DNA of 64,000 nucleotides. Source: Auricularia sp. M13 (taxonomy: Eukaryota; Basidiomycota; Agaricomycetes; Auriculariales; Auriculariaceae). Numbering within the stretch: position 1 is the stretch's first letter; every line of letters starts with the position of its first letter. Under the pieces are notes generated by a model, which did not search any database, was not told where the DNA came from, and saw only the letters and a list, made by a program, of their open reading frames with translations. Positions 1,997-60,550 of the stretch are shown here, piece after piece. The DNA is taken from positions 3,224,001-3,288,000 of the forward strand of contig CM073196.1 of the NCBI GenBank assembly GCA_037042915.1. Direction: 5' to 3'. The position numbers and the translations under genes are program-made.

Positions 1997-2446
1997 GTTG
2001 ATTTTTTTTGTGCAAGTGCCTACTATGCGAATGGTCACCCCGATGAGCGTGGCGCGACCGAACGGCCAGGCTGTCGATTGGTGGTGGATAACGCACGCGT
2101 ACCAGCTGCTGGTAGTCTCGCCGCGGTACTCCGCGGAAGGCCGATGTTCCGTCATTTATTGTGTGCGCCCCCTCTTGCGACCACGACAATTGCTGCTGCC
2201 AGGCCTATCATCTCCGGAATAACGCCAATTTCGGCATTGTTAACATCGGTGACGCGTGTCGAAGAGACATTCGGATAGTGACATGAGAAAAACATGATTT
2301 GCTCGGATCTCGACACTCTTTATTGGATAGTTCTCTGAAAAACCTTTTTGCGTGGCTCACGACCAGTGGAAATAATGAATGTTGTACAACGAATCTGTGG
2401 CGCCTGGACCCTGGTAATATACACATAACAGTAGGCCCGAGAGCTA
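1997..2446. other. Convergent intergenic region
   Basis: 450 bp between the 3' ends of the F-box gene and the AN1-APH gene. Only short ORFs without family features occur here. I see no repeat or RNA gene in it. Confidence 0.5.
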
Positions 2447-3931: not shown

Positions 3932-4525
3932 CAGTGTGTGAGAACGGGGAGATGGTGAGTGTTCGTGCGACGAGGCTGATGATGCGATGGGAAAGAGCAC
4001 ACGCGTGTTTGGCTCAAACAGAGGTAAACAATTGGCAGACCTCAAGGCCTCACCGGCACCCCTTTACCTCCCTTCGGTCTGTGAGAACATGTGAGGGACG
4101 GAAGCATGTGAGAGACGCTTATCAGCGGCAATGCTACAGATTGAGATAGGTGAGTTACAATTGATTTCTTCCTATGGGGTTAACAAGGCCATCGGATTCG
4201 TAAGGCTGAGGCTGTGGGAAGAATGGTGCGCGATACTGTGGTAATGTGGAGGACTATAAGCTTTGCACGTATATGTAAAAGGTAGGGGCTTGAGTTGCGC
4301 AGCGTATGAACAAGCTCGTCGACTCGTTTTTCGCGGTGCAAAGGAGAGTGGCGGCTCACTACGCAATGGAAAACTGTGGGCGTGATAAGTGCCCCGATGA
4401 AGCCTCGAACCAGGAACGCAGAAGCTGCCAAAATGCAGCGCCGTGGGGCTGAAAACCAGATAATCATCACATGCATCAGGAAAACGCGCCTGTGCCGTGG
4501 AGACTCCGGGAGCGGTCTATATAAA

Positions 4526-4566
4526 GTGACGCGCAAGTGACGCGCAGTGACGCGCGAGACGCGCAG
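4526..4566. repeat. Clustered TGACGCGC direct repeats
   Basis: Three tandem TGACGCGC units and one GAGACGCGC unit, directly after a TATATAA at about 4516. The same word recurs at 4704-4726 and 5165-5234. These resemble the subterminal repeat clusters of DNA transposons, but ACGCG-core words also match fungal MBF-type sites. I assign no function. Confidence 0.6.
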
Positions 4567-4709
4567 CACCATTTTGTACCCAATACTAACCCTTGTGAGG
4601 TCTGATAACATGGACCATATCCACTGAGGCCTCCAAAACGATTGGGCAGGTGCCATCAGCCCAGGGTCTTAGTTAACCAGGCAAAGTTGTAATAGTACCA
4701 AAAGGCTTG

Positions 4710-5234
4710 CGCGTCTCTTGCGCGTCCCCTGCATGTCATTGCAGATTGCAATAAATACAGACATTTGGAGCAAATGCCATGTGTAAGGAAGGTAAGACAT
4801 AGTCTATACTCTTTTTCGTGTTATTTCGATTGAAATTATTGCTCAAATAAACAATGCATACTCAATATGTGACACTCGTAAATAATAGCTTTCTACACAC
4901 TGCCACCAGTCACTACTGGGTCAATCTATCCACATGTGACAATCCATTTACACAGTACACATATTTAGCACAATTACCCTAGTTTGTGAGAGGGTGAATT
5001 CACCTAGAGACTCAGTCCAAAATCTCAAAGTCAGTCGTAAATACAGTTACCACCACCCTGGCAATATCATTATGTCTATACTCTTCCATATGGCATTTCA
5101 AGTTGTTTCTACACACATTTTGTTGATTCCTTGAGATTATGAGCAGAACGGGTTGCATTTGTGCAGACGCGTCTGTTGCGCGTCACTCTGACCAAGTCGC
5201 TCAGAGTGACGCGCAGTGACGCGCAAGAGACGCG
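4710..5234. mobile_element. Short inverted-repeat element (MITE-like) with GACGCGC ends
   Basis: The 17-mer CGCGTCTCTTGCGCGTC at 4710-4726 reappears as its exact reverse complement at 5218-5234. The 490 bp between are AT-rich and non-coding, in contrast to the GC-rich neighbours. The right side carries a second perfect inverted repeat (5177-5191 with 5201-5215). No convincing target-site duplication was found by eye, so the outer limits are uncertain. It could instead be one end of the large MULE element beside it. Confidence 0.45.
5177..5215. repeat. Perfect 15-bp hairpin
   Basis: TGCGCGTCACTCTGA at 5177-5191 is the exact reverse complement of 5201-5215, with a 9-nt loop (CCAAGTCGC). It lies inside the right end of the GACGCGC element. 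It is a likely transposase-binding or subterminal palindrome; no T-tract follows, so it is not a terminator-type hairpin. Confidence 0.7.
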
Positions 5235-5362
5235 TATATGAGTTAAAACTATTAAATGTATAAATATCAGACGGAGATTTAACTCATCAACTGGTGATAT
5301 GTACTAGTGTTTGGAGGTGGAATCTGAAATGGAAATAGTGTCTAGAGCCAGCAGGGGATGCA

Positions 5363-8300
5363 TCATTTGCGAGATTTCCTTCTAGTAGCACGTGTTTGGA
5401 TGCTAGAAACTCTAGGCATCTTCTTGACTGGTTCCTTTGCCTCATCCATGTTTGCCTTTGCCTCCTGCATCCGATCTTCCTCTTCCATCTCTGCATCGAA
5501 CTCCCTTTGATGATTTAGTTCCTTGTTGTGTCATTTGAGTGATTATGACTTACTGCTTTCGTTTGAGAGTTATTTGGCGTTCCAAAGGGGTTATATCAGG
5601 AGTCATATCACGTTTTGGAGAGTCCTCCTTGTAATTTGGCCCATTCTAAATTATAAAATAAATCAGATTTACCACTCATCGCAGTTATTCAGACCTACTG
5701 TCATAGCGAGCTCATACTCTGTTGACAGGCTATCCCAGCCAGCCTCTTCTTCTCTACCCTCAGTTGGACCATAGAGATATGGGTTCCAGTGATGCTGGTG
5801 ATGTCCAGCATCGCGCCCCCACTGAGAACAAGCAAACAGTCCAAGTTCTGCTGTCTGGTCCAGCATTAGATGTTCAAGAATAGCCAAAGCAAACACGTCG
5901 AGATCAATACTCTGCTGCCGCCCCAATCCTTTGTCGTGGATCTGATATGAGTCCCAGGCCTCATCCACTGATAGACTATTGCGTGAAGCAAGCACCAGAT
6001 TAATCGCGTGGAAGAGTGGCGCCTTCATGAAGATAGCAGGATTGTCAGACACATTGAGCCGCAGCCAATGCATGATCTGGGCCGCATCCATAGAAGTCAA
6101 AGTGCCATAAGAGGGATAGTCTGGAAGCTTGCCACAGTGCTTGGCCTGATATGAAGCCACTGGAGGTAGAGCAGACTTGAGAAGCGATTTCTCAGCCTGA
6201 GATGCACCATGGCACAGAGCATGCAAAATAGCGCTGTGGGGCTCCAGAAGATCCTTGATCTCCTGAGAGGGTGGGTGACGAAGGTAATTCTGATCAGGTT
6301 TGCTTTCCTCCACCTCGCTGGCAGGGAGCCATCGACCAAGCTATGGCAATTCTTATTAGTGGAGAAATAGTATAGAAAATATTTACTCACGCGAATCTGA
6401 CGTCTCTCAGCCTGTCTTCCAAATAGGCAGTCCACAATGTGATCTTCTAGGACAATCGAGGGGGGGAAGAACCCAGGAGGTTCAAATCTGGAGGATGGGT
6501 ACCATACAACATGCCATATTGAGCGATGTGCTGCATCTTTTCCCTTGGATATCAGGCGAGCAGGATAGTGGTATTTGCTGAGCCCGCTTTCTACTGTATA
6601 TGCTGCAAGGATGGCCATTCCTGGGCTATCATATGCTTAGTACTTAGAAAATGAAATACTATAACACATACTGAAGACGCTGAATGAGTGGCAAGTCCTT
6701 CATCAATGGAATAGCCTTCTTGAGTTCTCTGATCATTATAGTCAGATGGATTTCATGATTCAGTAAAGACACTCACTTGGCCAAATTTTCTGTATGGCGG
6801 TGAGTAGTACTGAGGCACTTGTGGCATCTGAACTCCTGCTCCTTCGCAAGGATCGTAACATATCCACCGAGTTGACAAGCCAAGTGAGAGGGACGCTTGC
6901 ATGTAATGCAGTGAACCAAGGGGCCATCCTTCGCCAAAGTTTGACGAGCTCCACAGCGACAGTGCAAGTCGTCGAAGTGAACATGCTTTGTGGGTAGCGC
7001 GCTGCTACGAACAGTAATCGAGGTTTGTTCAACCTTTCGATGTCCATAAACGCAATCCAACTGGGGATCATGTAAAGGCTGATTCCAGACGTCGGGGTCC
7101 AGCGTAGCAGTATGAGATGATGCATCTGAGCGAGAAAGATGTATGCCAAATTCGCGCAAGACATACTGTGACTGGTGGTCGGTGAAATAGTCTCTGGCTG
7201 ATTTGCCACCTCGAAGGTGATATACTGCTGACCAAATTCTGTGATCTTCTGAGGCATGCAAGAGGTGGTTGTCATCTAGAATGGAGCTGAGGATAACAGA
7301 ATCCCCATTGTTCCTCATGCCGTCATAGTAATAGGCCGAACCAGAAGGTGAAGAAAAGGTCGCAGTATAGTGGAGAGCTGCAGAGTCACCAGAACCCGAA
7401 AGATATCCAATCAAGTCGTAGACAAGCCCATGGGAGACACCAACATCCTCTCCCAAAGGGTAGATTTGAGTACTGAAGTACCAAACATGCTTTGTGTTTG
7501 GCTCTTCGAGATCCAGAATAAGTATATGTGGCAGTTCAACGATGATGCGATGGGTTGTAGAACAGCGTTCTGGGAATGGATGTTGATTGACTGCGCAGGA
7601 TGAAGGTGAATTCCAGGTAAGGGCCTCATGGAACCAGCTGGTGATGTTGCCTTGGAAGCGAGTGAAGAAGCCGTCCACATCGTTTTGAAACCGATAAGAG
7701 GACTTGTAGGTAAGACCACTGAGATTGACAATGTCACCGCAAAGCGCAAAGACCAGGGATTGTACTGTAAAGTATGCAGCCAGACCTGACGTCTTAGGAA
7801 ACTTGGCACGCTCGTAGTTTGCTAGATCGTAAAGCCATGACTACAAAATAATGAGTACCTCCTAAAGGAAAACAGATTACTCAACATACCCATGGACTGT
7901 CCATGCCACCTGGAGCTCTGTCTTTGATAGCCTGACCAGTGGAATGCTCGACAATTGTTTGCCTAAGGCCATCACGCTGGCGAGTAATAAAGGCAGAAGT
8001 GCCAGGTCCAGGACTCTGAAGAACTTCAGAGCGCAGTTGGAAGAGCTTCAAAAGCACTGAGAGGGGACTCTCAGGTGGAGAAAGCGCAAGGAGTGGTGAG
8101 AGGTAGTCCATGTCACGCAGACACGCATAATATAGGAGATGTGAGGACGAGTCCAGCCAGCAGGAGTTGGCCGACCATCTGGCACCAGGAATCTGTATCT
8201 ATCAGATTTGAATCAAGGATGATGAGCGTAATGAGCTTACACAATTGGTTATCTCTTTTCCAGAAAGTTCTAACCCTTCAGAGTGTGGCTGAGGCTTCAG

Positions 8301-11300
8301 TTCAGGAGTAGAAGGGGCTGAGCTGCTAGCAGCAGATTCGGCTGGTGAAGATGGTATCACCATGGAGGACTTCTTCTTTTGGCGACCTGAAGGCTTTGCT
8401 GGCAATGAAGTGGGTGCTGCTCCAGATGTCTTCTTGGAAGGTGATCGCACAAGAGCCCGTGCTGTATCTGGGCCACGTCCATCGTTAGGAATGACAAGAC
8501 GAACTTGAGTCTCAACATTCTTGGCAGTTTTGCGCACTCGAGGTCGTGGGTGTGAGATAACCGTTCCATAGCGAACACCATATCCAGCTAAGTGAATAAG
8601 TAAAGAATATATAAGTAATAGGCTGATTGGCTCACCCATCAGAGACTTGTCCATACTTTCAAAACCCTCCAGCCAGGCTCTAAGGCGCTTGAGCCCTTCG
8701 AGAAACCCAAAGCCCTTGCCCACAGCAGTGTATAGCCTCCAGTTCTGGGACTCCTGGGCATTATTTGTTGAAGGCAACAAACTCCAGAGCTCGTCATCCA
8801 TAACCTTGCAGGCAGGAAATATCTTAGACGCAACCCGTGGGTTCATCCACCAGTCCAGCCAAGCACCAATGCCGGGATAGGTCTTTCGCAAATTGTCCAC
8901 ATGAGTGGTAAAAGCTTCCAAGTCGCGAATCTGAAGCAGACGTCGAGCAGAAGCCTTGAAGGCATCACGCTGGGCAACTGGTATAACTGCCGAAACGGCA
9001 GAGACCTTGGTTACGCTCCCATCGTAGTGGTACTCGCAGCCTTTGATGTGCTCTGCAGCAAGGGCAAGAAGCTGATCTTCTGAATGACTTTCGTAGATGG
9101 TTGAAAACACATCAACGAATGCACCTCGAAATGCAGCGTCTTCAGCCATGGAAAAGTCCATCATCTAGAAAAATATTACTATATGATGTAGCACACGCTG
9201 TTGAACATACCATGTTGATGTCATCAGGTTGCAAACTGCGACCATCCTGAACAAGAATCTTATGGATGCCCATAAAGAGGCAGGAGTAATGTCGCTTATA
9301 CGCCCTCTGGGACCCACTGGTGCTCCATGACGCAAGTACTGGTATCCATGTGGATAGGGATTCCGAATAGGTCGAGGTGACAATGAGAAGTGCACCAGAT
9401 GTAAAGAACTTGTGCGCTGCATCAGAGACGAAGCCGTTGTTGGCAGCCTCAGTTCTAAGCTTGATAGAGGACACAGCGACATTGGCCATGAAAGTGGTCT
9501 GTAGCGTCACCATGCTGAAGTCGTCAAAGACATGGTCCACAATCTCGTTGGAATGGAGGTCGTAGAACAAATTCCAGTCCGCAATGAATGCATCCCCTCC
9601 ACGCACAGGTGCGGTCTTAACGAATTTACGACGCTTGTAGCCCAGCCGCGACTTGTTGCCAAGGACAGGAGATATTGTAGATGCTGAGGGTCCAGTTCCA
9701 TGTAATGTGCGCAGTCCAGTAAGTAGCTGGGAAGGCCCTGCATCAGGATGGAAATTGACAACATTGCCCAGTTCAGACAACTCGTCCTGGGTGAGGTGCT
9801 TGACAGGTGGCCGAACATGCATGTGCAGTCCACCATTGATGTAAAGGCACCCATCTCTCCAAGTGCGAATGGTAGACTCTACACCACAGTCCAGGTGGTG
9901 CACAGTAACCTTGTGCTGAGGGCACTGAAGCTCCTGAAGCTGTTTCTGCCTGCGATCTCGTCTCGCTTGTGGTCGAGCAACGAATGGGCAGTCGGCAGTT
10001 GGGCAATGGAAAACCCCAAGACACTTGCGAACAAGCACACGTCCTTTTGTTGGATCCTCAGCATTAGGGTCCTGCTGACGGCCTGAACCCTTTGGCTCTG
10101 ATGCCCAGTGCACAGGAAACTTGGCCTGCTGCCATTTTGAGTGCATGGCTGCAGTCTGCGAAGTCGAAACAAACGAGTAGAAGTCGCCATCGGCAAACTC
10201 TTCCCAGGCCTCCCAGGAACGGTGAGGAAGTGAGGGTGGTAGCAAGCCGGATTGGGTAAGCAGCGAAATTAGGGGTGCTCCAGGTGCTGAGCTAGCTTGG
10301 GGTTTTGCCACAGTCTGGCCAGACTGATGGATCGAAGGAGGATTGGTGGAAATTGACAAAGGCAATGAAGACGGCTGAGTGCCTGACAAAGCCAATGGCT
10401 GAGATGTTGATAATGATGCACGATCAGACATCACTGGAGGAAGAGGCAAGGTGTCCTGGACGTGTGAAGGTGCAACCAAAGTTTGTGTTTGCGCCGGTGG
10501 ATGGCCAACTACAATGGAGATGTTGTTGGATATTGGCACTTTGGAGTCTGGAAGTAGACATTAGAATTAGACATGCTAGCGGATTCTATCTTACCATGGG
10601 ACCCATGATGATTTCCAGATAATACAGAGGGTGCCTTGCTCTTGGATTGGGAGAGTACATGGGAACGCAGCGGATCCACTACATTATACACATAAGTGAA
10701 TCGAAAGTCAACTCAAAACTTAATGAAATATACCATCGAGGAGAGGGAGAACAGCCAAGGAGTGCCCTGCAAAGATACAGATGAATAAGAGTCTGAAAGG
10801 AAGTAATGAGGCATACCCAGTGCATTGACACACGTCACAAATCCACCTGATGGGTAGGTTGCTATAGCTGTTATGCAAGCATTAATACATCTGTTAGAAT
10901 GGCATTGATGTAGCCTACAAGATGAGAGGCCTGTAAAGGAGTGGCTTTTGGTTTTGAGGAACTGAATAACTAGAGACTCTTTAGATAACCTTGGGGAAAA
11001 TGTCACAATTTCCGTACCTTGTTGCTCTGGAAGCTGTGCAATTAAGGACCCTTTTTTGTGTAAGAATGATATATTTCAGAAGGTGGTGACCACCTCTTAC
11101 CAACAGAATCAATTATGTTGACGTAGTGATTGGGCGCCGGTGTGATGGGAGCTGGCAAAGTTTGAGATATAAAGCAAAGGGTCCATGATTTTACTTACCA
11201 CGTGGCTCAGATCTGGCTTTTGGGAAGAACTTTTGGAAGAGAAACATCACAGAACCTATAATGTGGTCAGATTAATAGATACCTCCACAGGAAGATAATT

Positions 11301-11375
11301 ACCAGAATCAATAAAGCGATTAGCAGGTTCCTGGAGCGAGCAGAACCACGAAGTAAAGACAGCAGTATCCAGATA
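5363..11375 (-). CDS. GCM-finger MULE transposase fused to UCH-like cysteine peptidase and PHD-like finger
   Basis: Supported exons, 5' to 3': 11303-11375, 11199-11255, 11101-11151, 11018-11050, 10817-10867, 10734-10766, 10595-10678, 9211-10547, 8636-9164, 8241-8587, 7890-8198, 6777-7840, 6672-6728, 6391-6625, 5699-6340, 5554-5645, 5363-5504. They sum to 5136 nt, 1712 in-frame codons. The first exon (start codon) lies upstream and is not resolved. Parts in order: two related short repeats (VNIIDSVGSLIAQLP; VTCVNALGHSLAVLP); a GCM/WRKY-type zinc finger (HCPTADCPF, then CPQHKVTVHHLDC; 9888-10026); an RNase H transposase core with D in VSDAAHKFF, D in MMDFSMAED and E in NNAQESQNW; a papain-like peptidase with Cys in NSCWLDSS (about 8155), His in HYTATF and Asp in YYYDGM; a PHD-like C4HC3 finger (about 6790-6990); and a basic C-terminus. 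One intron (10868-11017) is unusually long at 150 nt. Confidence 0.75.
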
Positions 11376-12067
11376 CTAGACACAGAAGCTAACAGAGCAG
11401 AGACACAAGACCAGAGCCCAACAGAGAGTGCAGACAAGGATTGTTGCCAGTATACGCAGTAGTATCCTAAACAAGGCGCTGCAAAGGTTACCACCTGTCC
11501 CCAGCACAGAGACACAGGCAAAGTCAGGAGCAGGAATATAGTACTCTATCACCAAAATCTGGGATGAGCACAGAGCGCCACGAATCAGAAGCCGGTCCAC
11601 AAGGTGTAGGATTAACCGCTCTCAAATGAGAACAGTAAGATTTTTAATCGTTCTCAAATGAGAGCAACTAAGGATAAACCACACGAAGTGATTTTACCCT
11701 GAGGGGTGACAAGTTTGAGGTAGAGTGGAAGCAGGGAAGCGATGGTGGTGGTAGGAAGACAAGGAGCAAACAGCTGACTTCGAAATTATACTCAGATAGG
11801 CCCCCGGAAAGCTCCGGTAGAGGTCCCATCCGCCGCCAGGCGGAATGTGACGGCGTTTAGACCTCGCCGAGGGCCCATTTTGCACGTCGTTTACCTGGAA
11901 CCTCGGCTTTTCCCGGTTTCCTCCGAAAAAAGTTCCGCTGTTCCCTCGTCCTCGCACCGCGGCTGCTCCAGCTCCCTACACCACAGGAAAGGATAGATTG
12001 ACGCGCCAGGAATACATCTGTGTAAGATACAACTAAATATTGCCAGAAATGTGAAAATAATCCCAAG
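11376..12067. other. Transposon 5' region and intergenic DNA
   Basis: Holds the unresolved N-terminal exon(s) of the MULE gene and the paired palindromes. A minus-strand hydrophobic ORF (11267-11521) overlaps the N-terminal exons in another frame and is probably not used. From 11.7 to 12.06 kb I see nothing coding. Confidence 0.4.
11618..11665. promoter_or_regulatory. Paired near-palindromes upstream of the MULE gene
   Basis: GCTCTCAAATGAGAAC (11618-11633) and GTTCTCAAATGAGAGC (11650-11665) share the core TCTCAAATGAGA and face each other across 16 bp. They lie just upstream of the transposase coding region on the minus strand. A dimeric binding site for the element's own finger protein or a host factor is a reasonable guess. 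Confidence 0.5.
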
Positions 12068-37827: not shown

Positions 37828-40785
37828 ATGCTGCCAGGACTTGCTGGCCATCGCTCGTCTCCGCGGATATCGTACTCCAGTAATTTCTTGACATCCCGAC
37901 CCCTCACTGCGCAAGCGATATTATCCCCGTTCTCTGCGCAGGCTCGCTCCTTCCATTCCTCAAGGTCTCTGCTTCCCCGGAGACCAGCCACAGCACCGCC
38001 AGCACACACCCGACATATCTCGCTTTCGTCTATCTCGTCGCTCTGGAAGACCTCGCCGTCGACGCCGTCGCCATTTAAAATATGGCGCGTGTCGAAGCTG
38101 GAGGACGAGGCCGACCTGGCGCCGCAGGAACCTGCGCGGCAGATCGCCTTGCTCCAGGGCCTCGCCGACTTGGACAACAAGGTCGGCTACGAGCGCATCA
38201 TCCGCCGCTGGGAGCGCATGTGCGAGTTTTCGCCCAGCAACCCGACGCTGCGCAGCGACGAGGCGTTCCGGCTGTACGTGCTCGCGCTCGTCAAGACCGG
38301 CCAGCAGGACTCTATCCCCTCCGCCACCCGTCGGAGGGAGTCTATCCTTGCGAAGAACCCGCTCCCTGGTCAGCCAGCGGCGCAGGCTCTCCCGGAAGGC
38401 CAGACGCGCTCGGACAAGATTGCCAACTCGGTGCTCGAGGACCCCAAGGCCCATGCGAAGCTCAATGCTTTACCTGATCCTGTGCCTACGCCTGACCCGC
38501 TTGCTACTGCCACGGCCTCTGCAACGGCTACTGGAACAACACCAGCTAGCCCTTTGACTGGTGTGCAAGCTCTGCTCTCGGCTGGCGGTGCTGGCGGGAA
38601 GGACACTCCAATCTACGTGACCATCGCGCAACGTTCGTCTTGCATCTATCATTCGTGACCTCGAAAGCTGAAATAAAACTTCACAGCGAAGGGAGAGGGT
38701 ATGTGGCGCTTCCTGCGCTTCACGGCCATGCTAGCCGTCGGCAGCTTCTTCATCTTCAGCTTCGTCGCGCTCATCGCGGATAACGCGGGCATCCTGAAGC
38801 AGAGGAACGAGCCGTCCGAGTACCAGGTTACGCAGGGGAAACAGGTCCTGTTCTCAGATGTGCACGGTGTGGACGAGGCGAAAGAAGAGTTGCAGGAGAT
38901 CGTGCAGTTCCTCAAAGACCCGACCGCCTTCGCCGCGCTTGGCGGCCGGCTGTCGAAGGGTGTCCTGCTCACTGGCCCGCCTGGTACCGGCAAGACGTTG
39001 CTCGCGAGGGCCGTGGCTGGCGAAGCCGGTGTGGTGCGTCCCAATCATCCTCATTGCTGCGTTCATTGACCATTCGCACTGCACTATAGCCCTTCTTCTT
39101 CGCCTCGGGCTCGGAGTTCGACGAGATGTTCGTGGGCGTGGGCGCGAAGCGGATGCGCAGCCTGTTCAAGGCGGCGCGCGAGAAGCAGCCGGCCATCATC
39201 TTCATTGACGAGCTGGACGCGATCGGCACGAAACGCTCCGCGCGCGACCAGCAGCACATGAAGCAGACGCTCAACCAGCTGCTCGTCGAGATGGACGGCT
39301 TCACGCCCGCGGACGGCATCATCGTCATCGCCGCGACCAACTTCCCGCAGTCGCTCGACAACGCGCTTGTGCGCCCCGGCCGCTTCGACAAGAAGATCGC
39401 CGTGCCGCTGCCCGATATCCGCGGCCGCGAGCAGATCTTGAGACACCATCTTAGGAATACGAAGTTGGAGCCTGGTATGTCTGAGCGCGGCTTGTCTTCA
39501 ACTTGACGAACATGATGCAGGCATTGACATCTCCATCCTGGCGCGTGGTACATCTGGTTTCTCCGGCGCTGATATCGAGAACTTGTGCAAGTACGTCCCT
39601 GACTACCCTACCTCGCGTTAATTATACTGATCTGGTTTATGTTTGTAGCCAAGCCGCGGTGAAGGCTGCGAAGGACGGGTTCCAGCATGTTGCCCGCAAG
39701 CACTTGGAGTGGGCACGCGTATGTCTAATTGCACTAGTCTTCTTCTCTCCACGAGACTGAAGACGCAATCAGGACCGCATCATCATGGGCGCAGAGCGCC
39801 GCAGCTTCTTCATGGACGACAAGACCAAGCTCATGACGGCCTACCACGAAGGCGGCCACGCTCTCGTCGCGCTGTACACGGACGGCGCCATGCCGCTGTA
39901 CAAGGTCACCTGCATGCCGCGCGGACATTCCCTCGGCCACGTATGTCTAACCACCTACCGTTCATGCGGGCCGTGTCGCTGACCATGCCTCGTAGACGTC
40001 GTTCTTGCCAGAGAAGGACCGGATATCGGTATCGCTGAAACAGTACCGCGCGTCCATCGATGTCAGCATGGGTGGACGCATCGCTGAAGAAATCGGTCCG
40101 TGCAGTCTATCTTGTCACCACCGTCGTTACTTAATCGCGTGCTGTGCGTAGTGTACGGTCCCGAGGACGTTACCAGCGGCTGCTCGTCCGACCTGCAGAA
40201 CGCGACAAGCATTGCGAAGGCCATGGTTCGGGTGCGGAGCGTTTCTCGTTATCTTAACTCAGGCGATGCTGATGTCTGGGTGCGCTGCAGCATTTCGGAA
40301 TGTCGGACAAGGTCGGCCCTGTGTTCTACTCTGCCAACGACCACAACATCAGCGGGCACCAGCGCGAGATGATCGAGGAGGAGGTCCGGAGGTCAGCATC
40401 GGCGCGCCGTCCGACTATTCCTTGCTTCCGCTGATATAACTTGACGATTGCAGAATATTAACTGGCGCGTCCGACCGTGCCAGGGAAATACTTACAACGA
40501 GGAGGGAGGAGTTGCGCTTGGTATGCCCGTCTCTTTTTCTTTCGATGTCATCTCGCTGGCGTGCTGACGGTATCTTTGTAGCTCGCGGAGGCGCTGGTGG
40601 AATTCGAGACGCTGGACCTGGAAGAGGTCAAGAAGGTGATCAAGGGCCATAAGATTCGCCAGGACGAGAAGCACAATGTGTCGAACGTTGAGGTCACCAC
40701 GATCACCTCGACGCCGCTTCCCTCGCCGCCAGGCCAGCCTATCGGTGCGCCCGCGGCGTCGGAGACGCCTGACCCATCATCATAG
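37828..40785 (+). CDS. yme1: Mitochondrial i-AAA protease (YME1/FtsH family)
   Basis: Eleven exons (37828-38632, 38687-39033, 39090-39474, 39521-39590, 39649-39718, 39773-39940, 39996-40095, 40152-40231, 40291-40391, 40454-40520, 40582-40785), 798 aa. The protease sits in the inner membrane facing the intermembrane space and degrades unfolded or surplus proteins. Order: Arg/Ser-rich presequence; YME1 N-terminal domain ([20 protein letters not shown]); one membrane span ([17 protein letters not shown]); Walker A GPPGTGKT; pore-loop region; Walker [34 protein letters not shown]; zinc site HEGGH (family usual HEAGH); and third ligand region [19 protein letters not shown]. The 3' end is duplicated downstream. 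Confidence 0.93.
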
Positions 40786-41029
40786 ACCAGGGCATCTCGT
40801 TGTGGTTGAACAAAAGTTGCAGTAGTTTCCTTGTGTGTACACCCCGCAATCAAATATCCTAAGCATTCCGTGTGCCTAAGTACATGCGATAACCCAGCAT
40901 GTCCTTCAGGGCGACTGTCATACCTCGCGGACCGCATCCGCGGCTTGACGCCAACTCGTCACGACTTGAGACAACGATTTTGCCATAAGCCCCGACTGAA
41001 GGCGATACGTCTGAAAAGAACCATCGGCG

Positions 41030-41038: not shown

Positions 41039-41704
41039 TAGTCTCGTCACCAGACACTGTTACTGCTGGTGCGCTGGCCGGGTCGCGTTTCGGTGTTTGT
41101 GTGTGTTTGCGACCGGCGGCTTTCAGCAGTAAAGAGTCTGGTGGAATTTACATGACTTACCCCCGTTGACCTTACCCTGACACAAAACTTCGGGGTTGCA
41201 ATTGGCAGTATTATTGATGATTTATAGTGGAAAAAATGAGAGCTTTGAGTGAAGCTTGTGTCCTGTGAGAGGCCGACCATGAATAAACCTCATCCTTCCT
41301 TTTGCATCCGAAGGTTTCTCTCTGCTCTACAATCCGCCACCAGGGTCATATTCCTTGTTCAAAGCTGTCTCAATAGCTGCAATATATACTCTTTGACAGA
41401 GTTTGACTTCTCCAAGGTGCCCCAGGCTTGCTTGGTGCAACCAGGGTGAAAAGTTCCCACGCTCCATGTCAGGAGATATACAGGGCCTTGGCCCATTTGA
41501 AGGTCATAAAATATCATTTTATGCTGTTATTATACATTCTGAGCAGGGTTTTGGTGGAAACAAAAATTGTGGAGGTCACCGGGGGTAAGTAATGTGAATT
41601 CCACCAGGCCCTTTGCTACCGGACGGCTCCGCGCGCAAATACTAACAAACACCGAAATGACATAAGCCGTCTGATATGTAGCAAAGGGCCTGGTCACGAG
41701 TCTA
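41039..41704. mobile_element. MITE-1, 666 bp, long terminal inverted repeats, 9-bp TSD
   Basis: The left end (TAGTCTCGTCACCAG...) and the reverse complement of the right end (TAGACTCGTGACCAG...) align over about 125 bp with gaps, sharing blocks such as TTTCGGTGTTTGT, GTTTGCG and CTGGTGGAATT-ACAT-ACTTACCCCC. Exact ACGTCAGGA duplications flank it. It has no coding capacity of its own. It sits inside the 3' coding part of deaminase gene A; the matching site in copy B is empty, so insertion followed the segmental duplication. Confidence 0.88.
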
Positions 41705-43024
41705 ACGTCAGGAGGATACCAGACAACTGGGCTCTGGCCACTGCAGCCGCGAAGGTAGAAATGGCGCTCAGAGTACGCATTGTATGACTCGAACATATTC
41801 CAACAGGGCACGCAGCTGGGTTCTGAAGTGCCGATGTATGGTTGGCAAGAATGCCCGCCACGGACAAGATGCTCGAGCAGGGCACATTCGCTGTGCTGAT
41901 AGGCATCGACCGAGGCCACCCATTTGTCAGTCATCGCCGCAGTGCCGAAGTGCGCGCGGAGAGGCTCAATTACACACTGCCGCCATTCCTCCTCGAACCG
42001 CGGTGGGCGTCCTGCAGAGGTCAAGATAGGATGATAAGCGCGTCCTGCGATATTGAAAAGATTCGGTTGTAGAAAATCAAGCGTGAGGCGACAAGGCGGC
42101 AATGGATGCACCGGCATGATCTGGGGCTCGGTTTGGAACCACTGTTTGTAACGATTGTCGTGAGCTGCGCTGCTTAGGACTGCACGAGCCGCTCCGAGCC
42201 AGCATAGCCTTCGCAGCAAGAAGCGAACTGGAGTTCTGGCTAGCAGGCATCCATCAGTGTCCGGAAAAGCGTGGCAGTAAAACTGTTAGCTTACAGACGT
42301 GTTCAACGTGGCGGACGAACTGGGAGGACCGCTTGTCCTTCAACGTATACTCGATTGTAGCGTAGATTTGACGTTGCTTGAGGAGAATAGCGAACAAGTC
42401 GACTCGCCGAGACGTGCCCTGGGATTGAAGATCGCTAATTCGGTCAACCAGATCTTGCAGGAACTTCATGTTGCTCTCGGTCCGCTGCTTCGCGCACTCG
42501 GTTCCTGAACAGTCCGCCTTATGAATAGCACAATCGTGGGCGAGCGCTCGAGTCATAGCGATAAGGAGGTTCCGAGCGTCCTCCCCATGTCGTGCCACGA
42601 TGGCAGGCAACGAATAGCGTAGTTGATCTTCGAAAAACGATCTATGTTTCTGCGCAAGGTCGGGATATTCCATTATATGACTTCCGGCGGCGGCAGCACA
42701 GTTGGGATCGTTCTGGATGTACCGCATGAAGTCCCAAAGTGCCTTCAGTCGCCCGATTGCCTCTTCGGGCACTCCTGTAGTCGTGTTTGAAGCGACGTAG
42801 ACGTTGACGGACAATGAAGAAGAGAGTTCCAAGGCAACGGCGTACGTGTCAGATGATTGGCGAACACATATGCCAGCGAGTGCGTCGAGCAGTTCCATGT
42901 CGTCGAGTTTAACATTCCACATGGCCTCGTCCGTTTGGTCTCGACCATTGTGGGTGCCATACATGTTCAAGCTAGACATGCAAGCGATGCGAACACCTGC
43001 CGACTTGGTCGATGCTGCGTCCAT
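41530..43024 (-). CDS. OTT_1508-like deaminase family protein, copy A, with MITE-derived C-terminus
   Basis: Exons 42295-43024 and 41530-42239 (55-nt intron, phase 1) give 479 aa. The N-terminal 240 residues are helical (DDMELLDALAGICV; LRYSLPAIVARHGEDARNLL). The C-terminal domain has the deaminase zinc signature of the OTT_1508-like clan: H-x-E in YQHSECALLEHLV, then YIGTSEPSCVPCWNMF with the two Cys. OTT_1508-like deaminases are abundant in fungi; substrate unknown. After WYPPD the frame enters MITE-1 and ends inside it, so the last roughly 60 residues are MITE-encoded; the original tail lies beyond the element (below 41030). Whether the chimera functions is unknown. Confidence 0.7.
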
Positions 43025-43084
43025 GTCGATGGTGGAGAGGCGACAATAGACCGAACACAGACGGCAAAGCCAAGCTTTGTACAT

Positions 43085-43227
43085 ATGCCTGTCGCCTTTT
43101 TTAGATTTCATATCGCTGGCGTGCTGACGTTATCTCTGGAGCTCGCGGAGGCGCCAGTGGGTTTCGAGACGCTGGACATGGAGGATGCCATCGTGATCAA
43201 GGGCCACAAGATTCGCCAACGTTGAAG
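43085..43227 (+). pseudogene. Duplicated fragment of YME1 3' end, part 1
   Basis: Matches YME1 from about 40524: the last intron (TCGCTGGCGTGCTGACG) and exon 11 (LAEAPVGFETLDMEDAI versus [26 protein letters not shown] identical). Because intron sequence is included, this is a genomic duplication, not a retrocopy. About 21 bp present in YME1 after KIRQ are missing. The copy is interrupted at GTTGAAG by MITE-2 and resumes at 43774. Confidence 0.88.
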
Positions 43228-43773
43228 TGGTGTGTCCAGCCGGCGGCCACCGCACGTTCCCGATTGCATCCGCGACAAGTCCTCCGCAACGTCGAAAGAC
43301 GTCCCAGCTCGTCTCCTCCGGCACTATAGCAGTGAGACATATACATAATCATTGAAAATACTTTCTATAAGGTGAATATGCACAAAAATTGGCGATTCGA
43401 GCAGTCTCATTTGTGCCTATTCTCAGCACAAATCTGCGAATAACCTTCCAGAAACACAGTTTACGGCTCTCATACCTTGCTATCATAGTGCCTTACACTA
43501 CATTAACAAACTGTGGGCCCCAGAACCGCGATATCCTTACAGATATACTTATCCGGATAACGCTCAGAGCAAGAATTGAGGCAGATACTGAGACCCAGAC
43601 ATCGTGCTCTAGATAGTACACCTAGCAATTGTAGCGATGCATTAGCGCTGTTATTTCCGATGGTAATCAGAGATTTAGCTCTTGTCCTGGGGGTTTAATT
43701 CGAGTCGGGAAAGCTGCCTGCAGGAAACAGCCGAAAACGTTTACATCCGATTGAATGGCGGCTGGACACACCA
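43228..43773. mobile_element. MITE-2, 546 bp, TGGTGTGTCCAGCCG ends, 7-bp TSD
   Basis: Begins TGGTGTGTCCAGCCG and ends with its exact reverse complement CGGCTGGACACACCA. GTTGAAG flanks it on both sides (43221-43227 and 43774-43780). The interior is AT-rich and non-coding. Its ends are unlike those of MITE-1, so it is a different family. The interrupted sequence is the YME1 3' fragment, and the intact YME1 gene shows the empty site (AACGTTGAGGTCACC). Confidence 0.88.
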
Positions 43774-43835
43774 GTTGAAGTCGCCGGAATCACCTCGCCG
43801 CCGGTGCCCGCACCGCCGGGTCAGCCCATCGGCAT
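43774..43835 (+). pseudogene. Duplicated fragment of YME1 3' end, part 2
   Basis: GTTGAAGTCGCCGGAATCAC and following bases match YME1 from about 40686 to 40743 (ending at the PPGQPIG codons). Weaker similarity to the YME1 3' flank continues toward deaminase copy B, showing the duplicated segment is continuous. Confidence 0.8.
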
Positions 43836-43954
43836 ATTTCGTGGTCGCGCAAAATTGCAGTGGGTTCATTGTATGAATCAATGAAGTATCATTCAGCGAT
43901 CGCAATTACATGCGATATCCATTATGTACAACATTGGACTATACTTCGATGTTG

Positions 43955-45374
43955 TCACGAACCCCTGGCCGCGTCGCAGGCGAGACGCCAGCTCCGCACA
44001 ACTCTAGGGAATGCCATGACTATCCAATCACGTTGAAGACGATACATCTCCGGAGGGGCACCGTCGAAATGAGGACAATCCCAGGTCATTGGGCTCTGTC
44101 CACTACAGCCGCGAGTGTGAAAGGGGCGACGTTCGAAATACACATTATAAGCCTGGAACATCTTCCAGCAAGGCATGCAACTGGGTTCGGAAACACCGAT
44201 GTAGGGTTTGCAAGAGCGGATGTGGTGAACAAGGTACTCGAGCAGAGTACATTCGCTATGCTTATACGCATGTGTTGAGGCGACCCATTCGCCATTCATA
44301 TCGGTGCCGAAGAACGCGCGTAGAGGCTCAAGCACGCAAGCGCGCCACTCTGCCTCAAGCTGCGCCGGTCGGGTGGGAGATCCGCCAGATTTATAGAACG
44401 ATTCTGCAGGGTGAAATAGCCTTGGCTCCGAAAAATCGAGTGTGATATGGCGCGGCGAAGGCGGTGACACAGCGATGATTTCATGATTGCGCGTAAACAA
44501 GGCGCGATATCTCGTGTTGTGAGCCACTTTGCCCAGACAGACACGAGCTGCTCCAAGCCAGCATAACTTGCGTAGGAAAAACCGAACTGGAGTTCTTGCT
44601 GATATACGCAGTAAGAATCCGGAAAGGGGGCCAAATGAGTGACGTACAGATCTGTTCAATAGAACGGACAAACAGGGACGACTGATCGTCCTTGAAAACA
44701 CCCCTGACATGGCGATAGAGGCTGGTTTGTGCATCAATGGCATCCATCAACCCTTCATGCTGCCTTGTATCCAGAGACCGAAGACGGTTGACTTTGTCTA
44801 CCGCCTCGCGCAGGAACAATTTGTTCTCCTCGGTCAAGTGATTGATACACTGGCCTCCCAAGCAGTCCGCCTTATGGATGGCGCAATTGTGAGTCAAGGC
44901 TCGATTTAAGGCGGCGACAATGTCGGAAGCCTCCTGCCCGTTTCGAGCCTCGATGGCAGGGGACGAATAGTATAGTTGACCATGAAGAAATGAGGCGTGC
45001 TTCTCCACCAGGCAAGGATAGCTGCTGAGGTCCTTGGCAGCGGCTTCACATGCGGGATCGCTCTGAATCGATTTGATGAAATCCCAAGCAGCATTAAGTC
45101 ATGCGATCGCTGCCTCGGGGACTCCTGCAGTGCTATTGGAGGCGACCCAGACGGTGACCGATGCAGAGAGGTCCAAAGCAGTGGCAAATGTGTCGGATGA
45201 CTCACAAACACAGATGGAGGCGAGTGTGTCGAGAAGGTCCAGGATGCGACGACCGTCGTTGTCGAATTTCTCTTCGTCCATCTGGTTCTGAACAGACAAG
45301 TGTGTGTTGTATTTATTCAAGATACCCATACCGGCAATGCGTATACCGACCGACTCGAGTGTGTCTGTGTCCAT
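43955..45374 (-). pseudogene. OTT_1508-like deaminase family, copy B
   Basis: Tandem paralogue of copy A, on the same strand, with the same one-intron structure. Shared N-terminal start (MDTDTLESVGIRIAGMGILN) and deaminase signature (YKHSECTLLEYLV, then YIGVSEPSCMPCWKMFQAYN). Here the natural C-terminus is present without a MITE (GCSGQSPMTWDCPHFDG to SWRLACDAARGS). The frame appears broken, by about one interruption, so it is probably a pseudogene. A TATA-like TTTATAAA lies upstream at about 45438. Confidence 0.7.
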
Positions 45375-46371
45375 GTCGTAGACGGTGTGGGGAGAGCGAA
45401 GGTTGAATTACAACAGACCGGTGCCGTCTGCAGCGGCTTTATAAACTAATTCGAACGCCGATGTTTGGTCCGGGTCCGGGGTTCACATTCATGTGTCCAC
45501 GCACAATGCAGGAGTCTTGTACTTACCTACTTTCCCGCAATTGCATTGACTGATCCCACAATTCTTGGAAGTTTTATCCGTGTCAAGTAGCACGACAGAG
45601 CATTTGTGCAAGTATCTTCAACCCGCTTCTACGCCCACGCGTACCTACTCAGCTTACTAAGTTATAGCCCGCCCAATCCGTCCAGCGTCAGCGCTTCCAA
45701 CCCTAATATCTGAGTCACTGCCTCAGGTTACCGCATTGCCGTACAACAGGTGCAATCTGGAATTCAGGGTTAACCACTCCGTGGCTCAGCTTGGAGTCCT
45801 GAGAAGCTGCGACTGCGGTGCAAGTACTAGTACCAGTAAAACGTGTTCTGATTGACGGATGATAGAATCATTGTGGGGTTTGTGTCGTTCTATGTTCCGG
45901 ATGACTTCAGGGTAAGTATTATCACTAGCCATCATGCGGCTATTGTAGTGCACTACGTTGGTGGGAGGGTCCTTGTGCCCACTCACTGATCATAAACCCT
46001 CAATACTCGACAGAGGCCCTGAGAAGAGCCTGTATCCTTAGTCCGTCTACCTATTGCTTTGTGCCATTGTGAAGCTATCCCGCCAGGGTGTTTCGCACAT
46101 CATGATGTTCTGAGACGCAAGGAACCCTTGATGAGTCGATGACCCCGGATGTAAATCACAAGCTGCTACTTCGACTCTCAATGCTCGTTTCTCTCAACCA
46201 AGGCAGTGTGTACATTGTGCCAAAGTTGTGAAACCGCCCTATTGGAGTGTTTGTCTCCCTGTTATTGGGCGTGGGCTCCCTTGATTGGTTCATGAGACAT
46301 CCCAGGGATCTTGCCTTGTCATGTACTGTGCTGCTGTGACGGCAGTAGCCCGGTCGTGATGTGCTCTCAAG
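45375..46371. other. Divergent intergenic region between deaminase loci
   Basis: 1 kb between copy B (minus) and the third locus (plus). No gene is supportable. It holds promoters for both sides. Confidence 0.5.
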
Positions 46372-46379
46372 TATATAAA
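46372..46379 (+). promoter_or_regulatory. TATA box of third deaminase-type locus
   Basis: TATATAAA stands 65 bp upstream of the ATG at 46437, the best-formed TATA box in the window and at normal fungal distance. Confidence 0.65.
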
Positions 46380-46436
46380 CCCTCAGTCTTTGGGCATCCT
46401 TCTGCACCTCAGCACCGAATTCGCTACGTCTCAGCA

Positions 46437-47625
46437 ATGGCTCTCAGCTCCAAGTCCCAGCATATCAACGAACTTCTGGCCGCTCTATGCGCCTTTGGTC
46501 CTCGCGATCTGGACGACGCTGGTCGCCGAGTATCCTACAACAAGGACGATGCGAAAATCAAGTTCTTAAACTTCGCCAATGGTCTAGCAGCTGTCTGTGC
46601 CAATCATGAGAGCAAGGGTGTTATCGCCTGTGTCATGCTCAAGCCAACGGCGAACCGCCCAGCGCAACTTGTCGTGACCACGAACGCGGAGGCAGACTTT
46701 CCTCGGGGGATCGAAGGATATCTACAAGATCTATTGGCATGGCTCTTCGCAATTTCTCGATCAGCGTCTGAGGCTGAGGTCCGAGCAGCGGAGACGCAGC
46801 TTTGGAACACCATCCTAGGCTTTTGTTGGCGCAAGCTAACGAAAAGATTTGTAAAACACGGCAAAGGACCCACGGGTTTAACCGAGCTGCAAAATTTCCA
46901 CGCTACTCTGCAGGAATCCGACCCGGATTACAATGTCATCAAGGCTATCTCCGAGCTTTGGAAAGCTGTGGTCACTGCAATTGGTCCGCAAGTTAACGGC
47001 AAGTTCCCACCTAATACGTACCGCGCGCCGTACTTCGACGATACTGGCAAAATGTCAGACAGAGTCCCGAAGAACTCCAGGCTCATTCACACAGCACCAG
47101 AGGGCGGGTGGGAATCAACCTTCGGTAAAGTGATTGAAAAGTATGCAGCCGTTCTCCAGCAGGCAGAGACAGCAAGATGTTCTTTGGCATTTGATGAAGA
47201 CGAAGTCAACAATGACGCAAACATGGTGATTTATAGACTTGACAGGGCCATTAGTGAGTTTAGGTCCCACATATCCTTCATCATATCACTCATTGCTGTC
47301 CACAGATGTCGGGGACAAGGATACCTTCGGGCACCATTTCAACAAGACGGTTTCGTATTTCAACAATGTCAGAGACCTCATTGCATATGCGAAGACAGAC
47401 GAGTTCCGGACATGGGCCACCTCACCCAACTCGGTTGAAGTCGTGCGGTATGTCGGCGACCCAGACACGGTGCTACAGCGGTTTCCGTTCACTGCCTCAT
47501 TCGACACCGGCTCAGCATTCGGCCAGGCCCTTAAACACAGGCTCAAAGAGAGAGGGCAGGACTACGATGATTTCCACGCAGCTTTGATCAAAGGTCTCGA
47601 GGAGAGGATGCGCACTTCATTCTGA
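46437..47625 (+). CDS. Helical protein of the OTT_1508-deaminase neighbourhood (N-terminal type)
   Basis: Two exons (46437-47253, 47306-47625; 52-nt intron, phase 1), 378 aa. Helix-rich with no signal peptide: INELLAALCAFGPRDLDDAG, FLNFANGLAAVCANHESKG (aligns in style with LLDALAGICVRQSSDT of copies A and B), LQDLLAWLFAISRSASEAEV, YFNNVRDLIAYAKTDEFRTW. It corresponds in position to the N-terminal half of the deaminase-family proteins. The deaminase signature itself is on the next ORF, 18 bp downstream. I annotate the two separately because their relation (one locus or two genes) cannot be settled here. Confidence 0.6.
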
Positions 47626-47643
47626 ACTTTCCGGAAATCGACC

Positions 47644-48102
47644 ATGTCGCTTGAACCGAACCACACCAGTCCTGTGCATTGCGAATCCGCGATACCTCCG
47701 TTCATGGTGAAGCACGGATACAACAAGGATGATCTTGTTGTCGACTACATCGGGGTCTCGAAATTGTGCTGCCTTCCCTGCTTCGACTACTGTCGTGCCG
47801 TCGGCGATACGAACAAGAATCTACGGCTTAAAGTGCGCAGCAGCCACAGCAGTACCTTTACTCCCTGGTATCTTCCCGTATACAAGGACAACAATTCAAG
47901 CACGGAGCCGGAGTGGGTGGCCGATGCGCGCGAGAGATTTATCGAGCACATGTGGCAGAGAGTCCTGGACGCCGGTCAGAAGCGGATGGTCCGGCGCAGT
48001 TCAAATAGCACCACGCGCTCCACACAGTCTCTTGGAAGGGCAGAAGGTTCGGTGATGAAGGATATGAAGGCCAAGGCGGGCGGTAAGGAGACGAAGGTCT
48101 AA
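47644..48102 (+). CDS. OTT_1508-like deaminase domain ORF
   Basis: 152 aa. Zinc-binding signature of the deaminase fold: H-x-E in PVHCESAIPPF, then VVDYIGVSKLCCLPCFDYCR with Cys pair, matching IGTSEPSCVPCWNMF and IGVSEPSCMPCWKMF of copies A and B. The C-terminus is basic and Ser-rich (MVRRSSNSTTRSTQSLGRAE). It follows the helical ORF closely on the same strand and is probably functionally linked to it. Domain call is good; start codon and transcript structure are uncertain. Confidence 0.6.
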   Translation: MSLEPNHTSPVHCESAIPPFMVKHGYNKDDLVVDYIGVSKLCCLPCFDYCRAVGDTNKNLRLKVRSSHSSTFTPWYLPVYKDNNSSTEPEWVADARERFIEHMWQRVLDAGQKRMVRRSSNSTTRSTQSLGRAEGSVMKDMKAKAGGKETKV

Positions 48103-48473: not shown

Positions 48474-50631
<2,158 letters not shown>

Positions 50632-51692
50632 TGCGATTCTGCGTGCGTGATGGTCTGAAGACAAAAGCGGGGACACTGACTTACCTAATCACCACTTTGA
50701 CAGGAGGAACACCGGCACGTGACTTTCTCCCTGGCATGGATGAAGAGAAACTGGTTCTACCATCCGGGCGCTCACATTTTCATAGGAAATTATAATATAC
50801 GTGCTATGAGGGCCCCGCTCATCGTTTTTTATCATAGCAATGGGCTTTCCGGGTCACAGGAGGCGCTCCTAGGGGACAATTTAAAGCTGTGAGGAATGTG
50901 CGATTTGAATTTCAGCACTGTACTGCGCTGAGTAACTGAGAGCTGTCTTCTGGTACCGCTTAGCAGGTAGAGTCGAGGGAGGGTACAATGCTCGCAAGCC
51001 AACCCCTCTGACTTGGTCCGGCGAATTGCTATCCCCAAAACAAACGATGGAAAGGGCAGCTGAGACCTCATCTGAAAAGCTGAGACGGGATGTGGCAGAT
51101 CTTCTGAGTTCTAGCTGCCGGCGTTTGAAGTCACGCGGTCTATTCCATGCACCTACCACGGCTTTCTGACGCAAGTGTAGACGTGGATGAACATGCGGGC
51201 ATCAGGCAAGGCGCCTTGACAGGGGCACTTCATAGAATGATCTTCGAGAGTCTGCCTCTGCGAGACACAGTCCTTTTTTTGGCTGTGCCACTGGCAGCTT
51301 CTATTCGTTAGAATTCTAGTAGCTCCGGGAGTTGTGCCACGGCTAGCTAACTGGTGGAACATACCAGGAAATATTTGACAGCTTGAACGCTGTGTGATGG
51401 ATTGAGAAGATGAACCTGAAAGGAGCGGATCTTCCAGGGCTTGCACCGGCATCGCGGCATGCAAAACTCAGGCTCGCCGGGGTCGTTCCGCGCCACACGG
51501 CGCAGAGGCGGGATACCGAAGGCGCTGCGCCGCTGGGCGGCCCCGTGAGCGCGCGCACAAGTTCCTCCCGAGTCAGAGTCAGAAAATCGCAGCATGATCT
51601 CGCAGACCGCAAGCGGTGCTTGGCGCGGGCGGCCGGGCTTATAAACTAAAAGGGATGACGCGCCCAGGCTGCAGCCGAAACACCGAACTCCC
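50632..51692. other. Divergent intergenic region
   Basis: About 1.06 kb between DDX41 and the penta-EF-hand gene. A TATA-like TTATAAA stands at about 51639 for the latter. No other supportable feature. Confidence 0.5.
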
Positions 51693-59296: not shown

Positions 59297-60330
59297 GGCA
59301 CTGGCAGGGAGGAACTTGAAGAGGATCAGATGATTGGCGTAAACACAGCCAAACGGCGGAGGCCTGCTGGTCGAGACCGCCGCCGACGACGCTCGCGCTG
59401 CGTCTCCCCGTCGTCCGGTCATGGCAGCGGGCGGCGAGGGTCACACCAATTTAGGTGGCTGATGGGGCCCTGCATGCCCCGTCTATCCCGCCCGCGCACC
59501 GAAACACTGACTTCAGATAATAGTCTCCGCCTCCGATCCCATGAGGCACCACCGGTTCTTAAACTGGGACTATGTTGTCAATCAATGCATTGCCCTGCCA
59601 TGCCAAAACGTCAACTTGCGCCTAGGCAGCCCCATGATTGCCTGGAGGTTTGAGAAGAACAGGTGCGGTCGTTGCAGCGGCTACTCGACATTGGCTGGAC
59701 AAGACAACAGATCCTGACAGTGCCTGGATACGACAAACGTTGGGAGCTTCCAATTTGTCGCCCTCACACGACCGTGTGGTACCAGCTGCAGCAGCATCAG
59801 CCACCTTGCGCTGTCAGCTTTCCCACCAAGGCCTGGGCCGATGTGCACTTTCGCTTTTCCATTGCGTTCAAGAACAAGCAGGTTTGGTCGCCGAGCTTAA
59901 ACAAGACTTTGTCCTCGCTGTCCGCTCGCACTCGCTGCATGTCAGGGATTTCTTGCGGCGGTACTTCTACGTGCTCGGTAGCGCATGGTGCTGCAACTGC
60001 GACGGTGTGGTGGAAGTGGACGCCGGGGACGCCTGCCCAAAGAAAAATCTCAGTGAGCCAAACCGCAAGTTTCGTCCGAATTAGGCAAGCGTCCTACAGA
60101 CGAAACTCACCGTTTGGCTCTCCGTCTGTCACCTCTCACGACACCTGCTCTTTAGCGTTTTGCAATGCGCAAATACTGGCACTCCCTTCCCGGTACCAAA
60201 ACCGAACCTTGGCGGCCGTAGCACGTTGATTTCTAGCATTATTGTTTTTACACCGCTCCTCAATTCACCCCGACTCACAGCTACCTCTAGCCTGGATGAT
60301 CAGGCCCTCGTACGGTGCGCGCTTGCCAAA
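59297..60330. other. Intergenic region with unsupported ORFs
   Basis: About 1 kb. Plus-strand ORFs here (for instance 59663-60229, 188 codons) have no recognisable motif, no clear introns and no codon bias I trust. I annotate no gene. Confidence 0.4.
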
Positions 60331-60395
60331 CGGACGAGGCGATGCGGACCGTTAAACTAGACGACATGGAACTGCTCGACGCACTCGCTGGCATA
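60331..60395 (+). pseudogene. 65-bp fragment of the deaminase family
   Basis: CGGACGAGGC-ATG-GGA...TTAAACT-GACGACATGG and the following AACTGCTCGACGCACTCGCT are nearly identical to deaminase copy A (reverse complement of about 42870-42934, coding KLDDMELLDALAGI), with about five differences. It is in opposite genomic orientation to copy A and about 17 kb from it. No other deaminase sequence surrounds it. Confidence 0.75.
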
Positions 60396-60550
60396 TCGTT
60401 CTGGAACTCACACCTCTTAGCATTTAGTACAAATTCCAACAGTTGATGCTATGGGCAGAGGTCTCGATCTGCACTGCAACAGTCAATGAAGCAAAATGCA
60501 AAAATTGTTCCAGAAAGCCCGATGTGCTTCCGGACCGCCCTCTTTCCTGT

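Follow-up and report, generated by a model that had tools for sequence, protein, structure and literature searches.

Do the three deaminase genes clustered at positions 41530-48102 of a 64,000-nucleotide stretch of the basidiomycete Auricularia sp. M13 form a working system that acts on nucleic acids, or are they being lost? The stretch (GenBank assembly GCA_037042915.1, contig CM073196.1, positions 3,224,001 to 3,288,000), which we call the window, corresponds to C4:3224001-3288000 in a genome of 52.1 Mb in 14 contigs, C numbers denoting the contigs of that genome. We refer to its three deaminase genes as copies 1, 2 and 3 (g1, g2 and g3) and name loci elsewhere by contig and kilobase. The answer that we consider probable, with moderate confidence, is that the genome holds a repertoire of deaminases of the OLD (OTT_1508-like deaminase) family, that of OLD-1 and OLD-2 of Neurospora crassa, which is under birth-and-death evolution without ZAO, the zinc-finger partner in that fungus; the window would contain decaying members of this repertoire, and the intact members would be RNA adenosine deaminases.

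To assign the family, we searched the whole genome with the PF14441 profile (curated cut-off, 27 bits). Of 13 candidates, 10 score above the cut-off, and three of these lie inside the window, at 41707-41895 (minus strand), 44069-44260 (minus) and 47674-47877 (plus), where the translated frames confirm them. The whole-genome E-values of the three copies (1.0e-8, 2.1e-8 and 2.5e-10) indicate that these matches are not due to chance. The catalytic motifs are intact: HSE/PYIGTSEPSCVPC in copy 1, HSE/PYIGVSEPSCMPC in copy 2 and HCE/DYIGVSKLCCLPC in copy 3. The His, Glu, Cys and Cys of the HxE...CxxC signature are invariant in all ten aligned copies, as are R162 and W172 (numbered on the copy 2 exon; the ten rows leave aside the C5 and C4:3348-3350 kb relics). 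The three loci are OTT_1508-like (OLD-family, PF14441) deaminase genes, as the sequence-only reading, an earlier inspection of the letters, had proposed from the H-x-E and C-x-x-C signature. With PF14441 (OTT_1508_deam) the genome shares the ten above-cut-off matches and the catalytic residues; it differs in that no bacterial relative was found here, one scan of bacterial genome contigs with one pattern having matched one stretch and confirmed no relative. The N-terminal helical part received no Pfam family name, five proteins gave no match in NCBIfam, four gave a single weak match in PADLOC (E 0.081), and a sequence search of solved structures returned a single match with an E-value of 0.63.

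The decay described by the sequence-only reading is confirmed, and it takes the form of one lesion in each window copy. Copy 1 (41530-43024, minus strand) was modelled by hand from its GT-AG intron and by comparison with copy 2: it starts at an ATG at 43024, has an intron at 42294-42240, and its exon 2 continues into an inserted element. This 666-bp inverted-repeat element (41039-41704; arms 41088-41172 and 41573-41657, 80% complementary; ends TAG) supplies the final 57-58 residues of the frame, residues 422-478 matching C6:3228344-3228514 at 98%. Its sister copy, C6:3227847-3228512, is 99% identical, and the two are flanked by different 9-bp target duplications, ACGTCAGGA at g1 and CATCGACGC at C6; Mutator-like elements make target duplications of this length. 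Past the element, at 40927-41013 on the minus strand, tblastn revealed a remnant of the native g1 C-terminus (QTYRLQSGLM...VTSWRQAADAVR), the tail of g2 matching the 387-bp stretch beyond the element with an E-value of 2.7e-7. The lesion of copy 1 is thus an element that splits its native C-terminus.

Copies 2 and 3 are each interrupted by a TGA. In copy 2 (43955-45374, minus strand; ATG at 45374, intron 44647-44599) the in-frame TGA at 45101-45099 stands where copy 1 has CGA (Arg). This TGA lies inside a small perfect hairpin sequence at 45091-45104 (GCAT-GACTTA-ATGC, by eye), and the 61-nt stretch around it has a folding z-score of -2.24. Copy 3 (46437-48102, plus strand) is a divergent gene of another subfamily, with an ATG at 46437, where its first-exon match also begins, and a 52-bp GT-AG intron at 47254-47305 assigned by eye. 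It does run opposite to the other two, as the sequence-only reading stated; its helical and deaminase parts, however, are not on adjacent open reading frames as that reading had it, since the open stretches on both sides lie in one frame, broken by a single TGA at 47623-47625 between the two parts. The GC-rich window contains 44 pairs of stop-separated open stretches with at least 90 aa on each side, 27 of them separated by TGA, so the stops of g2 and g3 are not special in themselves. A further relic of the g1/g2 type, of 26 residues at 81% identity, lies at 60327-60404 on the plus strand. The window copies thus keep the catalytic tetrad and carry one lesion each; judged by their reading frames they have most likely been inactivated recently or are being lost, and we infer that this inactivation holds in vivo. 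With a lesion in all three, it is doubtful that the window holds a working system.

When did this decay begin? The sequence-only reading took copies 1 and 2 for a recent duplication. The tandem duplication itself is borne out, with 64.7% DNA identity over 1206 columns and 52% amino acid identity, but its recency is not: dS (synonymous divergence) is 1.28 and dN/dS (the ratio of nonsynonymous to synonymous divergence) is 0.30 (0.22-0.43) over 415 codons, these and the following values coming from an NG86 script with bootstrap and being rough where dS exceeds 1. Exon 1 gives 48% identity and a dN/dS of 0.40 (0.25-0.58), and exon 2 as far as the element gives 57% and 0.20 (0.11-0.34). The corresponding figures for C2:1237 and C2:1235 are 70% and 0.19 (0.15-0.26) over 480 codons. 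Both pairs bear what reads as a signature of past purifying selection, and the identity, dS and dN/dS of copies 1 and 2 make this pair look old and long constrained. The losses, in turn, look young, because each long and otherwise open gene has one lesion and because the element in copy 1 is 99% identical to its sister. The stretch 43084-43218, just upstream of copy 1, is 82% identical over 140 columns to 40522-40661. By its sequence, what we see here is left over from a segmental duplication, the duplicated piece being probably the end of some neighbouring gene, and it has diverged less than the two deaminase genes have.

The window copies belong to a larger set. Copies and relics in the genome number at least 12, of which three are in the window and nine elsewhere, in addition to the 26-residue relic. 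Of the ten PF14441 matches above the cut-off, a 116-kb segment of C4 holds six and a 5-kb segment of C2 holds three; C4:2812 kb (22.1 bits) and C4:3348 kb (21.7 bits) are sub-threshold relatives. C2:1237 (579 aa) and C2:1235 (513 aa) each consist of one stop-to-stop frame that holds the helical and deaminase parts together, and C4:3350 shows, by eye, two open frames which an intron would join; these three copies look intact. The others are damaged or partial: C2:1239 falls into two frames, C4:2812 kb changes frame past CxxC, C4:3335 has an N-terminal part broken across several frames and a TAA, C4:3381 shows the deaminase part alone, C5:1046 consists of pieces across several frames, and C4:3348-3350 kb (21.7 bits) changes frame at HxE. 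Introns could account for some of these frame changes. A LINE-type element with endonuclease and reverse transcriptase domains (L010/L019, about C4:3338-3342.5 kb) adjoins the broken C4:3335 kb copy.

A tree of ten deaminase segments joins g1 with g2, C4:3335 with C4:3350, and the three C2 copies with one another, and places g3, C4:2812 and C4:3381 on long branches; one of its seven inner branches meets both support limits. Its joining of C4:2812 to g3 is weak and doubtful, because by identity (49-51%) C4:2812 is nearest to g1. The helical part of g3 has no match elsewhere in the genome. A g3-like relic (C4:3348400-3350290, L011) lies directly beside the g1-like copy C4:3350387-3351839, an arrangement like that of g3 and g2 in the window; we do not claim a recurrent pairing of g1-type with g3-type genes, because the similarity is weak (BLASTP E 0.018 in a single comparison) and there are two cases only.

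What might such a family do? The sequence-only reading held that fungal OTT_1508-like deaminases have no known substrate. This is contradicted by N. crassa, where OLD-1 and OLD-2 are reported to carry out A-to-I editing of zao mRNAs: as part of an antiviral response they edit a stop codon of zao, a zinc-finger gene next to the deaminase gene (PMC12754623). The literature thereby supports a nucleic-acid-acting, conflict-related role for these relatives. CHE1 of Fusarium graminearum, described as a homologue of zao, has three C2H2 fingers (PMC11169179). The Neurospora pairs (old-1/zao-1 and old-2/zao-2) and the Auricularia genes have in common an OTT_1508-like deaminase with H-x-E ... C-x-x-C in more than one copy, and a conflict-related role is reported for the former. 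They differ in number and state, at least 12 copies or relics, most with lesions, as against two reported pairs, and in the partner: here no C2H2 gene was found beside any copy and no TAG-interrupted partner was recognised. The Tad2-Tad3-Ame1 mRNA editing complex is another A-to-I deaminase, with a preference for hairpin loops and for U at position -1 (PMC12754623), but it belongs to another deaminase family and has its role in sexual reproduction.

The missing partner was sought in several ways. A zinc-finger motif scan that covered the window plus 14 flanking stretches (about 134.5 kb of flank, not including C4:3328001-3329999, 3374901-3375999 and the C4:2812 flanks) gave three C2H2-like matches, one at L011:7395-7466 and two in the window at 51392-51463 and 49744-49809, together with two Zn2Cys6-like matches. 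Each of the five stands isolated, in a frame that looks by eye improbable or of low complexity. Among the 150 of 205 candidates scored with PF00096 there were 27 matches, the nearest being about 125 kb away for the window copies and C4 cluster, about 24 kb for the C5 relic and about 2 Mb for the C2 trio. Judged by eye, the gene near the C5 relic resembles any other spliced C2H2 gene. Apart from the deaminase, the seven neighbourhoods compared (4-30 kb, frames of at least 40 aa, E up to 1e-4) have no gene in common, and no adjacent zao-type C2H2 gene was found beside any copy in the stretches examined. Near the copies there are a few TAG-split open stretches, which by eye we took for chance occurrences, zao not having been sought by sequence in the rest of the genome. 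The genes therefore belong to the OLD family but, as far as adjacency was examined, not to an OLD-ZAO module, no C2H2 neighbour having been found.

The transposon load noted in the sequence-only reading is real, and comprises the 666-bp element in copy 1 and two repeats. One, of about 546 bp, lies between copies 1 and 2 (43228-43774) with inverted ends TGGTGTGTCCAGCC...GGCTGGACACACCA, and has seven further copies of at least 400 bp plus shorter pieces. The other (8205-10560), in a CpG-poor region, exists in three full copies, in the window, on C9 and on C7, that are 99% identical; the long open frames scanned in it matched no Pfam family at E 0.01. The window is a fungal gene region, with a GCIP-like gene, an FtsJ methyltransferase, TANGO2, a DEAD-box helicase and a translation that we take to be an FtsH-type AAA protease. 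Elsewhere the genome carries STE3 pheromone-receptor genes, at least two of them, with a spacing of 41 kb on C7; ascomycetes usually have one such gene, and the number fits a basidiomycete. There is also an expanded Argonaute set, with Piwi-domain matches in at least six places on C1 and C4. Given these places, an RNAi layer resembling the repressor of OLD-ZAO in Neurospora may exist in this genome.

With deaminases and transposons so close together, it is natural to ask whether the genes encode genome-defence DNA or RNA cytosine deaminases that target the neighbouring transposons, as the sequence-only reading had suggested. The ratio of observed to expected CpG is indeed only 0.53-0.74 at window positions 4000-12000, and 0.99-1.15 in 8 of 12 deaminase genes; methylated CpG, for its part, decays to TpG and CpA. 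Comparison of the three copies of the 8.2-10.6 kb repeat (alignment columns 1400-4000, sites with two copies agreeing) yielded 37 singletons, 15 of them CpG transitions, with C>T 12, G>A 11, A>G 4 and T>C 4: a strand-symmetric, CpG-centred pattern such as methylation decay predicts. Seven copies of the 546-bp repeat, compared with their majority and counted without the 443-bp copy and shorter pieces, gave C>T 29, G>A 21, A>G 20 and T>C 22, with no clear bias, and copy L047 alone contributed 11 of the 29 C>T and 11 of the 22 T>C. No C-to-T excess beyond CpG decay was found in either repeat. These differences look like methylation-type decay rather than a deaminase footprint, so that DNA editing of transposons is not supported. 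The studied relatives, moreover, act on adenosine (PMC12754623), and A-to-I editing would not leave C-to-T changes, which takes further support from an explanation that we consider very improbable. We think just as little of the chance that a complete OLD-ZAO module is present, with its zinc-finger partner nearby but missed. OLD-ZAO is said to occur in one basidiomycete (PMC12754623), a C2H2 gene does stand some 24 kb from the C5 relic, and a finger split by an intron could have escaped, exons having been searched singly; against this stand the isolated and implausible motif-scan matches, the distance of the nearest scored PF00096 match from the C4 cluster, the deaminase as the sole family common to the seven neighbourhoods, and the ordinary look of the C5 gene.

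A different view is that the window copies work after all as an active arsenal, copy 1 with its new element-derived tail and copies 2 and 3 by having their stops bypassed through splicing, readthrough or allelic variation. The catalytic residues are intact in all three copies, a single lesion is seen in each, copy 1 loses residues only after the conserved core W, and a phase-compatible alternative intron can be drawn by eye in copy 3. We nevertheless regard this view as unlikely: the native tail of copy 1 sits past the element, the stop of copy 2 stands at a codon that is CGA in copy 1, and stop-separated stretches are common enough that no special device is needed. A further reading is self-editing, an active OLD relative turning the UGA of g2 and of g3 into UGG (Trp) and so switching members on; a self-editing deaminase family would then replace the OLD-to-ZAO relay. 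We give this hardly any credence. The base before the A in UGA is G and described fungal A-to-I sites favour U, the predicted hairpin-loop position of both UGAs is shared by 191 of 600 sampled window TGAs, and a plain CGA-to-TGA mutation explains the stop of copy 2.

Several observations weigh against our own reading of decaying window copies and RNA-editing intact ones. With dS above 1 and close to saturation, the dN/dS values behind the constraint are rough. The alternative intron in copy 3 (GTATGT...CAG, 47448-47669) would excise the TGA, at a cost of some 74 codons, and the other donor, GTCTCG, is a poor one. Identity between subfamilies is only 18-28% in the alignment, which bears on whether OLD chemistry carries across. 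Two AlphaFold jobs (alignments of 10 and 11 rows) gave low-confidence models with mean pLDDT of 51.6 and 56.7, and Foldseek with these models found no fold match at E < 0.001. Finally, a re-examination of RNA editing in six species (five Polyporales mycelia and Coprinopsis development) reports, in the part of it available, no evidence for such editing (PMC9723688).

On the reading that we favour, a repertoire of at least 12 copies or relics would turn over through tandem duplication, inactivation and transposon insertion. The products of the intact C2:1237, C2:1235 and C4:3350 kb genes would most likely be zinc-dependent adenosine deaminases like Neurospora OLD-1 and OLD-2, and it is from Neurospora that we infer their RNA substrate, A-to-I chemistry and defence role. 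They might act at a few hairpin-loop sites in host mRNAs, perhaps as a virus-induced switch; with no zinc-finger neighbour found, the target, if any, would be located away from the deaminase genes. The genome keeps intact-looking members of an mRNA-editing family, with a signature of purifying selection, in a group of fungi for which RNA editing is not evidenced in the available part of the six-species report (PMC9723688). Should the copies act solely during virus infection, their editing would go unseen in transcriptomes from virus-free material. That OLD genes appear to multiply and die without a ZAO neighbour is relevant to the question of which forms the unit of evolution, the deaminase by itself or the pair.

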